Source: Thermoanaerobacterales bacterium | GTDB lineage: Bacteria; Bacillota; Desulfotomaculia; Desulfotomaculales; JASEER01 | DNA: 34,690 bases | Assembly (NCBI GenBank): GCA_030019475.1 | Contig: JASEER010000023.1 | Location: 1-34,690 of the forward strand | Direction of reading: 5' to 3' | Part shown: positions 28,434-34,556 of the stretch, piece by piece | Layout: each line of letters starts with the position of its first letter | How positions within the stretch are numbered: position 1 is the stretch's first letter | Notes under the pieces: model-generated | The model's input: the letters and a program-made list of their open reading frames with translations, nothing else | Told to the model about the DNA's origin: nothing | Databases searched by the model: none | Made by a program: the position numbers and the translations under genes

Positions 28434-29378
28434 TTGAAATTTTGTGGAGTAACCACAGATCTGGCGCTTGAGGCCCATGCCGCCTTGCGTGCCCAGACGG
28501 GGGGAGAAATCCCGGGTGTGGCCGTCCGGCAGGAATCTTTTCCGCACGGGCAGGTAACGGTCGTTCAGATCCTGGATGACCGGGGTGCGCAGGCGATGGG
28601 CAAGCCCGTAGGGACATACGTGACCCTTGAAGCGCCAGCCATCCGCGAGACGAATCCCCAGGCCCACGCGGCTGTTGTCGAAGTCCTGGCGAAGCACCTG
28701 GGAACCTTGATCGACGTGCCGGAGCAAGCGAGCGTGTTGATCGTCGGCCTCGGCAACTGGAATGCCACACCCGACGCCCTTGGACCGAAGGTTGTGAACT
28801 ACACCCTGGTGACCCGTCACCTTTTTGAGTTCGCCCCCCAGGCCGTACAGCCCGGGATGCGGCCCGTAAGCGCCATTGCTCCCGGGGTACTGGGCATAAC
28901 AGGCCTCGAAACGGCGGAAGTCGTTCAGGGGATCGTCGAGAAGATGAAGCCGGCGCTTGTTATTGTAATCGATGCCCTGGCCGCCGGTTCCGTCGAGCGC
29001 ATCGCTTCGTCCATTCAAGTGGCCAATACAGGTCTTAACCCGGGGTCGGGAATAGGCAATAAGCGCCGCGGCCTGACGAAGGAGACGCTGGGCGTTCCGG
29101 TGATTTCCATCGGCGTGCCGACGGTGGTGCACGCCGCCCTGATCGCCCGCGAGGCTATTAACCGGCTGTACCGGGCTTACCAGCGAGACGTGCCGGGGCA
29201 GGAGATCCTCGAGCCGATTATCAGCGACCTTTTGAAACCGTTCGGCGGGGCGCTCATGGTGACACCCAAGGAAATTGACGACCTGATCCGCAACTGCGCG
29301 AAGATCATCGCCGGAGCCCTGACGGCGGCCCTGCACCACGGGGTGACGGCCCGCCAGTATACGACTTATCTGCATTAA
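28434..29378 (+). CDS. gpr: Germination protease GPR
   Basis: GPR digests small acid-soluble proteins early in spore germination; it is made as a zymogen in the forespore. 314 aa. TDLALEA near the N-terminus, VGLGNWNATPDALGPKVV, PGVLGITGLETAEVV, IDALAAGSVERI, NPGSGIGNKRRGL and LMVTPKEIDDLI are family motifs. TTG start with GGGAGG 9 bases upstream; no other start fits, because a TAG lies 12 codons before it. Only seven residues precede TDLALEA, shorter than the Bacillus propeptide, and an internal insert of the Bacillus enzyme is missing. Its likely substrate, a SASP, is the next gene. Confidence 0.95.
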   Translation: MKFCGVTTDLALEAHAALRAQTGGEIPGVAVRQESFPHGQVTVVQILDDRGAQAMGKPVGTYVTLEAPAIRETNPQAHAAVVEVLAKHLGTLIDVPEQASVLIVGLGNWNATPDALGPKVVNYTLVTRHLFEFAPQAVQPGMRPVSAIAPGVLGITGLETAEVVQGIVEKMKPALVIVIDALAAGSVERIASSIQVANTGLNPGSGIGNKRRGLTKETLGVPVISIGVPTVVHAALIAREAINRLYRAYQRDVPGQEILEPIISDLLKPFGGALMVTPKEIDDLIRNCAKIIAGALTAALHHGVTARQYTTYLH

Positions 29379-29432: not shown

Positions 29433-29696
29433 TTACACACCCTGGGTATTGAACGGTTCGGGCGGGGCAGCCTGGGTGACCTGGCCGATGTTGCCGCTCT
29501 GCAGCGCCTGCTCGGCGAAGGCCACCATCTTGCGGACCATGTTCCCGCCCACCTTACCGTTAATCCGGGACGGGAGGTCGCCCTTGTCCAGCTGGGCGTA
29601 GTTGCCAAGACCGATCTCGGCCGCAACCTCGTACTTCATCTGGTCCAGAGCCCTTCCGGCACCCGGTTGAATGGGAACGTTGGTTTGTCTCGCCAT
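29433..29696 (-). CDS. Alpha/beta-type small acid-soluble spore protein
   Basis: DNA-binding spore protein of 87 aa that protects the spore chromosome from UV and heat. Both conserved blocks are visible: KYEVAAEIGLGNY, which holds the GPR cleavage pentapeptide (EVAAE, usually E-I/F-A-x-E), and LPSRINGKVGGNMVRKMV, the DNA-binding segment. ATG with AAAGGAGG upstream. It faces gpr and lies behind a sigma-G-like promoter. Confidence 0.95.
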   Translation of the reverse strand: MARQTNVPIQPGAGRALDQMKYEVAAEIGLGNYAQLDKGDLPSRINGKVGGNMVRKMVAFAEQALQSGNIGQVTQAAPPEPFNTQGV

Positions 29697-29741
29697 TTTT
29701 CCTTACAGCCTCCTTTGGTTTTTTAGTTTGTAGCCTAGTTG

Positions 29742-29770
29742 TAGTATGACCCCTATCCAACCCTTTATGT
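29742..29770 (-). promoter_or_regulatory. Sigma-G promoter of the SASP gene
   Basis: Minus strand ACATA, 17 bases, CATACTA. The -10 fits the sigma-G consensus CATnnTA exactly, and SASP genes are the classic sigma-G targets. It starts about 45 bases before the SASP ATG. Confidence 0.7.
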
Positions 29771-29940
29771 TAACACTTTTTAACGCCCTTTCGTCCCCTT
29801 ACCTTTGGATCGTTCCTCTGTAACTGCCTTAATCTCTCAAAGTCAAGGCCGCTTTCGTACCCAAGCTCATAGTGGCAGTCACCGCCGGCCGGCACTATTG
29901 AAACTTCACCTATGTTACTTTTTTTGCTTTTGTTCGCCAT
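29770..29940 (-). CDS. Unrecognised 56-aa protein, probably forespore-expressed
   Basis: A small gene between the SASP gene and recG. ATG with a perfect GGAGG 8 bases upstream, 56 codons, then TAA. The protein has a basic start (ANKSKKSN), a middle with GGDCHYELGYESGLDFERLR and a basic end (VRGRKGVKKC), with Cys at 22 and 56 and no membrane segment. Codons such as AGA, TTA and ATA are more AT-rich than those of the neighbours. A sigma-G-like promoter lies just upstream, and gpr and a SASP gene are next to it, so a role in the developing spore is inferred. I do not recognise the family. Confidence 0.7.
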   Translation of the reverse strand: MANKSKKSNIGEVSIVPAGGDCHYELGYESGLDFERLRQLQRNDPKVRGRKGVKKC

Positions 29941-29970
29941 TTTTCTGGCCTCCGTTTACGTTCTTCAATT

Positions 29971-29999
29971 TATTATGCATAAATAACGGCGACATAATG
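29971..29999 (-). promoter_or_regulatory. Sigma-G-like promoter of the 56-aa gene
   Basis: Minus strand CATTA, 17 bases, CATAATA, about 30 bases before the ATG. The -10 fits CATnnTA and the spacing equals that of the neighbouring SASP promoter. The -35 is weaker and overlaps the hairpin at 29988-30004. Confidence 0.5.
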
Positions 30000-30004
30000 T
30001 CGCC
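29988..30004 (-). terminator. Small hairpin after recG
   Basis: GGCGACA, loop TTA, TGTCGCC, then GTTATTTATG on the minus strand, about 50 bases after recG. A weak terminator is possible, or an operator-like palindrome over the next promoter. The surrounding 300 bases are clearly AT-richer than the rest of the window. Confidence 0.45.
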
Positions 30005-30051
30005 ATAAAATATTGCATTTTTGCGCCGTAAATGGTATATAGAGTAGAATC

Positions 30052-32136
30052 TTAACTTATGCCCAAACCTCGCAGAAACTCACCGAAACGGAGCTGCAGG
30101 GCGGTCCGCAGACCGGCGTGCACCGGGTCGGCCAGTTCCGGGTCGTGTTCCACCACCCACCGCGCCGCGGCCCTCATCCGCGCCGCCAGATCGAGGTCCC
30201 GCGGCAATTGGGCGGCCCGGAAAAGGGGCTGGCCGGATTGGCGCAGGCCGAGGAACTCACCCGGACCGCGAAGCTTCAGGTCGAATTCCGCGAGGGCGAA
30301 GCCGTCGGTTGTCCCGCAGACGGCTTCCAGGCGTGCGCGGGCCTCGGGGTTCCGGGCGCTGGATACCAGGAAGCACGAACCCGCCAGGCCCCCTCCCCGG
30401 CCCACCCGTCCGCGCAACTGGTGCAGTTGGGCCAGGCCGAAGCGCTCGGCGTCGTAGATGACGATCGTCGTGGCCCGAGGCACGTCGACGCCGACCTCAA
30501 TGACGCTGGTCGATACCAGGACCTGGATTTCCCCGCGCCTGAACAGCTCCATGACCGCTTCCTTCTCGGCCGGCCGCATCCGGCCGTGCAGCAGGCCGAC
30601 CCGCAAAGACCGCAAGGGACCGGCCGCCAATCGCCGTTCAAGGTCAACCGCCGCCTGGCTCTGCAGGTTTTCAGACTCTTCCACCAGGGGACAAACGACA
30701 TAGGCCTGGCGGCCTTCCCCCGCCTCGGCCAGGACATGCCGCCAGACCCGTCCGATATCCCGCGGCCGAACCACCTCGGTCTGCACCGGCTTCCGGCCGG
30801 GGGGCATTTCGTCGATCACCGACAGGTCCAGGTCGCCGTACAGGGTAAGGGCCAGGGTCCGCGGGATGGGCGTGGCCGTCATCACCAGCACGTCGGCGGC
30901 CAGTCCCTTCTCCTGCAACCGGGCCCGCTGACGAACCCCGAACCGGTGCTGCTCATCGATAACCGCGAGCCCGAGGCGGGCAAAGCCTACCCCTTCCTGG
31001 ATCAGGGCCTGGGTACCAACCACCACCCCGGCCTGCCCGCCGGCCACGGCCGCGAGCGCCGCGCGACGCTCGGCGGCCCTCATTCCGCCCGTCAGGAGAT
31101 GAACCTCAATCCCCAGCGGATCAAGCATCTCCCTCAGGCGAAGGTAGTGCTGTTCCGCCAGGATCTCGGTCGGCGCCATCAGGCCCCCCTGAAACCCGCC
31201 CTCGACGGCTTTGACCAGCGCCAGGGCGGCGATAACGGTTTTGCCCGACCCGACGTCGCCCTGCAGCAGCCGCCTCATCGGTGCCGCCCGCTGCATGTCC
31301 CCGGAGATCTCGCGCCAAACCCGCTGTTGGGCGCCCGTGAGGCGGTACGGCAGGTCGGCCAGGAGCGCCGCCACCAGAGGGCCGTCGGGCCCATGCGGGG
31401 CGGGTTTTGTGCGCTGGGTGGCGCCGCGCCGTATAATGGCCAGCGCCGCCTGAAGCAGGAACATCTCCTCGGCCGCGAGGCTGCGCCGCGCCTCTTCTTT
31501 CTCCTCCCAGGATGACGGGAAGTGAATGGCCGCCAGGGCTTCGGCAATGGGCAACAGGCGGTGTGCCCGGCGCAACGGCCCCGGGAGCAGGTCGGCCAGC
31601 AAAGGAGCCCATTCGTCAAGGGCGGTGCGCACCATCTGGCGGATGACTTTCTGGGCCAGGTTTTCGGTCGCCGGGTAAACGGGGACTATGCGGCCGCTGT
31701 GCAGCCCGTCCGCACCGTTCTCCACCGCCTCGTGTTCAAGCACGTTAATCTCGTAACGGCCGAAGGCACGTTTCAACCGTCCGACGACGAAAAGCCGCAT
31801 TCCGGGGCGGATCTGGCGCAGTATGTAGGGTTGGTTGAACCAGGTGGCGTAGAAGACGCCGTTCCCCCCGTCCAGGGCCAATTTGGTTATTATCAGGCCC
31901 CGGCGCGGCCGCAACTCCTGCCCACCGAGGACCACTCCGCCGGCGGTGACCGTCTCCCCTATGCGCTCCGGCACGAGGATGCCGGCGTGCGCCCGGCGGT
32001 CCTCGTAGCGCCGCGGGAGGTGGTAGAGGAGATCCCCCACCGAGGCGATCCCCAGGCGGGCCAGGAGTTCCGCCCGCCGCGGGCCCACGCCCTTGAGATA
32101 TTGCACCGGGTGTGCAAAGGGGTCCCGTGCCGCCAT
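30052..32136 (-). CDS. recG: ATP-dependent DNA helicase RecG
   Basis: RecG remodels stalled replication forks and Holliday junctions. 694 aa. An N-terminal HhH-like segment (YLKGVGPRRAELLARLGI) leads into the OB-fold wedge domain, then Walker A LLQGDVGSGKTVIAALAL, DEQHRFGV (motif II), MTATPIPRTLALTLYGDLD (motif III) and QLRGRVGRG (motif VI). The ATG at 32136 is chosen because AGGAGG lies 5 bases upstream; the open frame runs on but without likeness. Typical partner of rsmD and coaD, here separated by the spore genes. Confidence 0.96.
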   Translation of the reverse strand: MAARDPFAHPVQYLKGVGPRRAELLARLGIASVGDLLYHLPRRYEDRRAHAGILVPERIGETVTAGGVVLGGQELRPRRGLIITKLALDGGNGVFYATWFNQPYILRQIRPGMRLFVVGRLKRAFGRYEINVLEHEAVENGADGLHSGRIVPVYPATENLAQKVIRQMVRTALDEWAPLLADLLPGPLRRAHRLLPIAEALAAIHFPSSWEEKEEARRSLAAEEMFLLQAALAIIRRGATQRTKPAPHGPDGPLVAALLADLPYRLTGAQQRVWREISGDMQRAAPMRRLLQGDVGSGKTVIAALALVKAVEGGFQGGLMAPTEILAEQHYLRLREMLDPLGIEVHLLTGGMRAAERRAALAAVAGGQAGVVVGTQALIQEGVGFARLGLAVIDEQHRFGVRQRARLQEKGLAADVLVMTATPIPRTLALTLYGDLDLSVIDEMPPGRKPVQTEVVRPRDIGRVWRHVLAEAGEGRQAYVVCPLVEESENLQSQAAVDLERRLAAGPLRSLRVGLLHGRMRPAEKEAVMELFRRGEIQVLVSTSVIEVGVDVPRATTIVIYDAERFGLAQLHQLRGRVGRGGGLAGSCFLVSSARNPEARARLEAVCGTTDGFALAEFDLKLRGPGEFLGLRQSGQPLFRAAQLPRDLDLAARMRAAARWVVEHDPELADPVHAGLRTALQLRFGEFLRGLGIS

Positions 32137-32255
32137 CATAGCCTCCTGTCCGCGTGCCCGCCCCGCACCACCGGTACGGAACGGTTTATTCCTTGCTTCA
32201 AGTTTGACAGAGGAAACGCCCACCCCTGCCCGACATTACTTTATCAGGTAGAAAA

Positions 32256-32375: not shown

Positions 32376-34556
32376 ATGCCGGCTGCAACCGTGGGACTGC
32401 CACGGGCAATGTCATACTACTATCTGTACCCCTATTTTAAGACCTTCTTCAAGCACCTCGACGTGGAGCTGGTCCTGTCTCCGCCGACAACGAAGAAGAC
32501 CCTGGAAAAAATGGAGTGCTGTCCTACCGACGAGCCCTGTCTCGCCGTCAAACTCCTTTTCGCTCATGCGCGCGAGTTGATCGATCGGGGCGTGAACCGC
32601 CTGCTGGTGCCCTGCCTGGTCAGCCTGGAGCCGAAGAACTTCTGCTGTCCGAAGTTCATCGGCATCCCGTACATGGTCAAGAACGCCTTTCAGGATAAGT
32701 CCGAGGTCATCATACCCGAGATCGACCGCTTCCAGGGCCGGCGTGACTGGCAGGAGAGCTTCGTGCGCATCGGCTCTTCCTTCGGGGCCGGGCGCCGGCA
32801 GGTGCTCAAGGCTCTACACCATGCCCGGCAGGTACAGGAGCAGTATGAGCGGGCCTGCGTCGGCCGCGGGCTGACCACCCCCGAGGCCTTCGCCCTGTTC
32901 GAGGGCCGCCGGCCGCAAGGCGCAACCCGGGCGATGGGTGACGCGCTTCCCACCGTCGGCGTAATCGGCCACCCCTACATTCTTTACGACGCCTTCAGTA
33001 TCGACATCCTTAAGCGGTTCCAGGAGTACGGACAGGTTCTCACGGCGGAAATGGTGCCCGCAGCCGAGGCCCGCCGCCAGGTCGCCCGGGTGGCGGAGGG
33101 CGAGCGGCTCTGGAGCTTCGAGGCCCAGATCCTCGGGGCCGCCCTTTATTACCTGGAACACCGGATGGTCGACAAGCTGGTCCTGGTGGGGTCCTTCGAA
33201 TGCGGACCGGAGTCGGTCATCGAGTCCTACGTGGAGGCCGAAGCCGCCCGCCGGGGGGTGCCTTTCCTTCTCCTGACCATTGATGAACATACGGGTGAAG
33301 CCGGCCTGGTAACCCGCATCGAGGCCTTCATGGACGTCCAGCCCCTGCCGGCGTCCAGGCGGCCCGCCGCCGAACAACGTCCTGCTTCCGAGTTGCCGGG
33401 GCCGCGGCGGGAGCCTTTCGTCATCGGGCTGCCGACCATGGGCCACCTCGACGTCGCCATCCGCTCCGCGCTGAACGAGTGCGGCGTCGAAACTCTGAAG
33501 ACACCCCATGCCAGCAAGGAAATCCTGGAACTGGGCAAAGTCCTCGCGCCGGAGTTCGTCTGCCTGCCCTTCACCATCACCCTCGGGCAGATGCGCTGGC
33601 TCTTGGACCACGGGGCGACAAACATCCTGATGGTGGGCGGCAAGGGCAAGTGCCGCCTGGGCTGGTACGCCCAGATCCAGGACCTTTTCCTGCGTCGCCT
33701 GGGCTACGATTTCAACATGCTCATCATCGACTCCCCCGTGCCCTTCCGCGAACGCTGGGCCGGGTTCCGGGAGGTCATCAAGCGCGCCACCAACGGCACC
33801 CCCTGGCTCAAGACCCTGCGCGCGCTCTATTTCGGCTATCACAAGATGGCGGCCATCGACGAGGCGGAACGGGTCCTGCACCGCCTGCGCGCCTTCGAGG
33901 CCGAACCGGGAACGGGCGACCGCCTCTTCAAGCAGTTTATCCGCAGAATCGAACAGGCTTCCCAGACCGCCGACGTCTGGCGGCTCAAGGATGATTTCCT
34001 CGCCGAGGCCGCCGCCGTACCGGTCGAAGAAACGGACCCGGTCCGGGTGCGGATCGTGGGCGAGATCTGGGTCGTCCTGGAGTCCTATGTCAACCTGCAC
34101 CTGGAAGAAATGCTGGGCAAATCCCGTGACCCCCGGGTGTGGGTGGACCGTGAGATTTCGGCCACCACCTGGTTCCACCAGCACCTCTTCCCAACGCGGG
34201 AAGCGACCGAACGCAAGCAGCGCATTAAGGAGACCGCCGCCCGCTACCTGGGCGCCGAGGTCGGCGGCCACGGCCATGTCAGCGTGGGCCTGACGGCCCT
34301 GGCCCGGGAGGAGGGTATCGACGGCGTGGTGCACCTGATGCCCTTCACATGCATGCCCGAGATCGTCGCCCAGAACATCATGGTCCGTATTTCGCAGGAC
34401 TACGACCTTCCCGTGCTGACCTTCATCATCACCGATCAGACCGGCGAAGCCGGGTTCGAAACCCGGGTGGAGGCCTTCCTCGACATCCTCAAAGACCGCC
34501 GGACGGCCGATCACGGGGTAGGTACTTCCGCCCTGCCAAACCTCGCCTTGACCTAA
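32376..34556 (+). CDS. Fused acyl-CoA dehydratase activase-related protein (HgdB-like, two modules)
   Basis: 726 aa made of two related modules. Module 1 (about 1-325) starts VGLPRAMSYYYLYPYFKTFF, as in DUF2229 proteins, with Cys-rich MECCPTDEPC and KNFCCPKF. Module 2 (about 350-726) starts FVIGLPTMGHLDVAIRSAL and has VCLPF, GKGKCRLGW and FTCMPEI. Each ends in the same kind of motif: TGEAGLVTRIEAFMD and TGEAGFETRVEAFLD. A Pro/Ala/Arg-rich linker (about 325-350) marks the joint. These proteins accompany BadF/HgdC-type ATPases and are related to subunits of 2-hydroxyacyl-CoA dehydratases and benzoyl-CoA reductases; the Cys likely bind iron-sulfur clusters. In relatives the two modules are, as I recall, often separate genes. 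Substrate unknown. Confidence 0.82.
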   Translation: MPAATVGLPRAMSYYYLYPYFKTFFKHLDVELVLSPPTTKKTLEKMECCPTDEPCLAVKLLFAHARELIDRGVNRLLVPCLVSLEPKNFCCPKFIGIPYMVKNAFQDKSEVIIPEIDRFQGRRDWQESFVRIGSSFGAGRRQVLKALHHARQVQEQYERACVGRGLTTPEAFALFEGRRPQGATRAMGDALPTVGVIGHPYILYDAFSIDILKRFQEYGQVLTAEMVPAAEARRQVARVAEGERLWSFEAQILGAALYYLEHRMVDKLVLVGSFECGPESVIESYVEAEAARRGVPFLLLTIDEHTGEAGLVTRIEAFMDVQPLPASRRPAAEQRPASELPGPRREPFVIGLPTMGHLDVAIRSALNECGVETLKTPHASKEILELGKVLAPEFVCLPFTITLGQMRWLLDHGATNILMVGGKGKCRLGWYAQIQDLFLRRLGYDFNMLIIDSPVPFRERWAGFREVIKRATNGTPWLKTLRALYFGYHKMAAIDEAERVLHRLRAFEAEPGTGDRLFKQFIRRIEQASQTADVWRLKDDFLAEAAAVPVEETDPVRVRIVGEIWVVLESYVNLHLEEMLGKSRDPRVWVDREISATTWFHQHLFPTREATERKQRIKETAARYLGAEVGGHGHVSVGLTALAREEGIDGVVHLMPFTCMPEIVAQNIMVRISQDYDLPVLTFIITDQTGEAGFETRVEAFLDILKDRRTADHGVGTSALPNLALT

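Follow-up and report, generated by a model that had tools for sequence, protein, structure and literature searches.

Results

A small open reading frame between a SASP gene and recG

In the window, that is, the whole stretch of 34,690 nucleotides analysed here, the minus strand carries an open reading frame (ORF) that runs from ATG through 56 codons to TAA at 29770–29940 and translates as MANKSKKSNIGEVSIVPAGGDCHYELGYESGLDFERLRQLQRNDPKVRGRKGVKKC. A ribosome-binding site, GGAGG (29949–29953, minus strand), stands 8 nt 5′ of the ATG. Downstream of the small ORF lies a gene for an alpha/beta-type SASP of 87 aa (29433–29696, minus strand; PF00269, E 3.2e-23), which is convergent with gpr, the gene for the germination protease (28434–29378, plus strand; TIGR01441, E 3.4e-112), and its upstream neighbour is recG (30052–32223, minus strand; RecG Pfam domains). 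Divergently from recG, 32376–34556 encodes a protein with DUF2229 and 2-hydroxyglutaryl-CoA dehydratase D-component domains. An earlier note on this DNA had claimed a hidden ORF of exactly this extent, the GGAGG ahead of it, a gap of 355 bases between the SASP gene and recG (29697–30051), and the identities of SASP, gpr and recG, and all of these hold, the last being borne out by Pfam and NCBIfam matches; the two cysteines (C22 and C56) and the basic ends that it described in the protein are likewise correct (pI 9.6). In dinucleotide-preserving shuffles of the 355-base gap, a 56-codon ORF behind GGAGG occurred in 0 of 3000, and an ATG ORF of that length, with the condition of a ribosome-binding site dropped, in 319 of 3000.

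The ORF is conserved at the same locus in relatives

Among 60 relatives searched, the best match was found in G014 (41% identity, E 9e-4), with weaker ones in G049 and G005, and all three lie next to gpr, with recG, or its expected place, on one side and the SASP gene on the other. A profile of these first homologues retrieved new members in G031 (E 8.5e-19), G058 (1.4e-13), G077 (7e-10) and G040 (1.6e-4), and three families of the order carry syntenic homologues. The window protein, as a single sequence, matched a family profile built without it at E 1.2e-8, a value equalled by 0 of 5000 shuffles. The dN/dS ratio was 0.12 for G005/G031 and 0.31 for G049/G058, the two pairs tested. Therefore, on the strength of the syntenic homologues and of dN/dS well under 1, the 56-codon ORF is a real gene, and the homology and purifying selection that the earlier note proposed to look for in relatives are both present. 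It had also named frameshifts in relatives as an argument against the gene; the reading frames are kept in the homologues, but in one genus (g21) the gene is decaying, with a shortened copy in G040 and decayed remnants in G020 and G078. On the basis of the ORF, the homologues at the same locus and the leave-one-out profile, we annotate 29770–29940 as a half-SASP-like gene, in the sense given below.

Several side observations and chance matches accompanied these searches. The g21 remnants are located at L065:1542–1655 and in L089 around 1190–1480, and the gene adjoining the remnant in G020 resembles the window gene at 32376–34556. Two f6 genera (L063–L066, L068, L089; G005, G031, G020, G040, G077, G078) seem to have lost recG, as the genome search returned no RecG-level match in these six genomes and one weaker helicase match in each, situated in a large ORF (probably Mfd). 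An apparent relation to HMG-CoA lyase (L048, 72% over 18 residues) was a chance match within a long gene, and the matches of the profiles to sigma factors and other long ORFs were also attributed to chance.

The core motif lies in register with the SASP cleavage helix

The 56-aa protein gave 0 matches in Pfam (E up to 10) and NCBIfam, nor does it appear among the PF00269 matches of its own genome (E up to 0.5). The claim that it fits no family is upheld to that extent, but profile comparison ties its GGDCHYELGYESG core to SASP-like half proteins. In the nine family sequences, the start Met, E25, G27, E29 and D33 are invariant, and in a diverse set of 18 alpha/beta SASPs from the order an E, A and E at the same spacing and one Gly are invariant. 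The family core, E-[LM]-G-[RY]-E, thus falls in register with E-x-A-x-E of the helix that GPR cuts in alpha/beta SASPs, and in the window protein, where the GPR-site-like core CHYELGYESGLD occupies residues 22–33, the site reads E-L-G-Y-E against E-[IVLTF]-A-x-E of the SASPs, with Gly instead of Ala. ‘EIA’ is the site at which GPR cuts SASPs (PMC8452069). In a profile-profile comparison the family and the alpha/beta SASPs aligned weakly, in the GPR-site register (P=2e-4, probability 46%). As judged from these alignments, the GGDCHYELGYESG core represents a divergent version of the helix at which GPR cleaves SASPs.

At P2′ the window subfamily has Gly in place of the Ala of SASPs, and it is without the hydrophobic residue three positions before the Glu; the Ala-to-Gly change is found in 9/9 members of the subfamily and in 6 of 42 other half-SASPs. 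Additionally, the second half of the SASP, GG-x-[MI]-[VT]-[KR], is missing in all 51 sequences examined, the window protein included. Conservation is limited to the protease-recognition motif, both ends being basic and variable, and the pI exceeds 9 in all nine family members. Structure prediction gave a pLDDT of 58 and no confident fold, which is to be expected for such a family, since SASPs are largely unfolded without DNA.

A wider group of half-SASPs at the gpr locus across the phylum

In two families, f3 and f11, the place of the SASP gene at the gpr locus is taken by another small ORF (FEVAQE-MG...LTKTDHGN). When 398 genomes of the phylum were searched with the profile of this ORF, the matches were ORFs of about 40–70 aa with a basic N-terminus, one [YF]-E-V-A-Q-E-[IM]-G site, a short tail and no GG-x-M half, which we call half-SASPs. 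An alignment of 15 of them (A6) matched the alpha/beta SASPs with P=7e-9 (probability 96%), and the window subfamily matched A6 with P=1e-6 (probability 91%, 28 columns), both in profile-profile comparison. A half-SASP is present at 27 of the best 30 A6 loci, in 27/27 cases with gpr and/or recG within 1.5 kb each side, and 10 of 13 further half-SASPs from lower ranks also lie beside gpr and/or recG. Because these matches were found by sequence alone, the fixed position, seen in 37 of 40 half-SASP ORFs in total, counts as independent evidence; a caveat is that the matches counted include the 15 sequences of A6 or relatives of theirs.

The window gene shows the features of this group (37–68 aa, basic, one E-x-[AG]-x-E core, no GG-x-M half), and its place between recG and SASP/gpr is the half-SASP position. 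The single window sequence matched the half-SASPs alone weakly (E 0.03), and the window protein is weak against SASP or half-SASP profiles that leave out its own subfamily, the link going via intermediates; several f11 members, reading E-V-G-Q-E, carry the same Ala-to-Gly change as the window subfamily. Strict YELGRE-type homologues were not found outside the order in the 398 phylum genomes, where only the wider half-SASP form occurs. Within the order, half-SASP-like ORFs were present at 19 of the 80 gpr loci surveyed, one remnant included, so the gene is patchy there. In most half-SASPs the first half matches PF00269 just under the cut-off (1 of 8 tested lay above it, on its first half only), and NCBIfam gives them no name. 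Half-SASPs of 37–68 aa are apparently a group so far undescribed, no description of such half proteins having been met in the limited set of open literature searched.

Two further short proteins were observed. The one that replaces the SASP in f3/f11 (L061, L062, L069, L071, L088, L240–L244, L255) has 60–68 aa and a highly conserved C-terminal TGADxLTKTDHGN(x)ARFNP. A second short SASP type (52–63 aa, SDALKYELA-E-MG...SRECG-FVK) occurs at other loci in nine genomes (L145–L153); it has a PF00269 match, and CG-x-FV takes the place of GG-x-M.

A sigma-G-like promoter precedes the small gene

A -10-like element of sigma-G type, CATAATA (29971–29977, minus strand), which starts at -37 from the ATG, and a -35-like element, GACATT (29996–30001, minus strand), 18 nt ahead of it, were located by position weight matrix scan. 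The letters CATTA-17-CATAATA, pointed out before this analysis, are present, and written with a hexamer they read GACATT-N18-CATAATA; the spacing, said to be the same as in the promoter of the SASP gene (AACATA-N17-CATACTA, 29742–29771, minus strand, with a -35 that touches the end of the half-SASP gene), is equal to within one base (N18 against N17). SASP genes are controlled by sigma-G (PMC3789822). The matrix was made from 17 SASP promoters (AACATA-type -35, CATA[AC]TA -10, spacer 17–18), that of the window's SASP gene being left out, and about 0.3% of shuffles scored as high as the site ahead of the window ORF. In 8/8 homologues the best sigma-G-like site falls 34–46 nt ahead of the start codon, whereas 1000 trials with shuffled sequence placed it there in no more than 5/8, and the eight scores summed were matched by 1 of 1000. 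Individually clear promoters belong to the window and G014 only, the other homologues being weak one by one. For 42 half-SASPs, the summed upstream promoter score was above all 300 shuffles, and 12 were individually at p<=0.02. Conservation of CATAATA in all homologues was not found, and it is the window and G014, together with the joint test, that make the case for the promoter.

The -35 element is overlapped by a stem-loop, GGCGACAT-T-ATGTCGCC (29986–30006, minus strand), located 3′ of recG, which is probably the recG terminator. It contains a perfect 17-base palindrome, GGCGACATWATGTCGCC (29988–30004), that is unique in the genome, which makes a terminator likelier than a regulator site.

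Discussion

We propose that the product of the small ORF is a minor SASP-like protein, made in the forespore and removed by GPR at germination, a reading that we hold to be rather probable, as conservation is confined to the protease motif, with variable basic ends on both sides, and structure prediction yields no confident fold. A sigma-G-type promoter of its own would drive transcription of the half-SASP gene in the forespore, and the protein would be packed into the spore core, keeping the first alpha/beta SASP helix with a variant GPR site, Y-E|L-G-Y-E, between basic unstructured ends, and missing the second, GG-x-M helix. At germination it would be bound and cleaved by GPR, the product of the adjacent gpr, and the peptides so released might serve for amino-acid supply, as with those of SASPs. 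We infer in this way the forespore expression, the spore-core location, the cleavage by GPR and a nutrient or weak DNA-binding role. A role as amino-acid store could be attractive, since gamma-type SASPs have been reported absent from clostridia and clostridia-like spore formers (PMC3533761, PMC8452069).

A different relation to the protease, which we regard as unlikely, is that half-SASPs, above all the E-x-G-x-E subfamily, are dedicated GPR partners encoded beside gpr across the phylum, acting as pseudosubstrates or decoys, in which the E-x-G-x-E helix would occupy the protease, be poorly cut and so restrain GPR until germination. The fixed position beside gpr, the GPR-type site as the sole conserved part of the protein, and the Ala-to-Gly change at P2′ throughout the subfamily are all in its favour, and weak or no cleavage of the window subfamily has to be considered because of that Gly and because a hydrophobic residue is lost ahead of the site. 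However, the E-V/I-A-x-E site is of the normal form in most half-SASPs, for which ordinary cleavage is to be expected, and GPR is held as a zymogen, so that an inhibitor would be superfluous. If half-SASPs did serve as such brakes, they would set the timing of the stripping of the spore DNA coat.

The string ELGREIGIDFPRL also resembles the A-x-E-L-G pattern of helix-turn-helix (HTH) helices, and HTH_28 matches one homologue below threshold (E 0.044), a chance match having also come from a similar string in a sigma factor; a small HTH DNA-binding regulator is nevertheless improbable, given that the hallmark Gly varies (G, Q, N or A) while both Glu are invariant, the protein leaves scant room for a three-helix fold and has no confident structure, and its N-terminal part is unconserved. 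That the ORF, directly upstream of the SASP gene and lost to remnants in one genus, is only a translated or non-translated leader of that gene, or is in decay and has no role as a protein, is very improbable indeed, as dN/dS is far under 1, the SASP gene has its own promoter 3′ of the small ORF, and f3/f11 and other families have a half-SASP without a downstream SASP.

The lists of minor SASPs derive mostly from Bacillus. Half-SASPs constitute a conserved, mostly unannotated kind of small protein, with the germination-protease site only, tied to the gpr locus phylum-wide, and thus offer a tangible candidate for a minor spore protein so far missed, or for a GPR regulator, for which cultivable carriers exist.

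Compared with the alpha/beta-type SASPs (PF00269; B. subtilis SspC, PDB 2Z3X), the window protein likewise is small and basic with a GPR-site helix in register, and its gene likewise has a sigma-G-type promoter and adjoins the SASP gene and gpr. However, it is without the GG-x-M-V second helix, has the Ala of the EIA site replaced by Gly and is unrecognised by PF00269. The gamma-type SASP (SspE) is similar in being a GPR substrate without the alpha/beta DNA-binding domain and is thought to be an amino-acid store, GPR cleavage being presumed for the window protein, but no family match to the window protein was returned and, as cited above, this type is reported absent from clostridia. The closest counterparts are the phylum half-SASPs at the gpr-recG locus, which the window gene resembles in length, basic ends, the one GPR-type site, the missing second half and the locus itself, while most of them read F-K-[YF]-E-V-A-Q-E-[MI]-G where the window subfamily reads Y-E-L-G-R-E-x-x-I-D-F.
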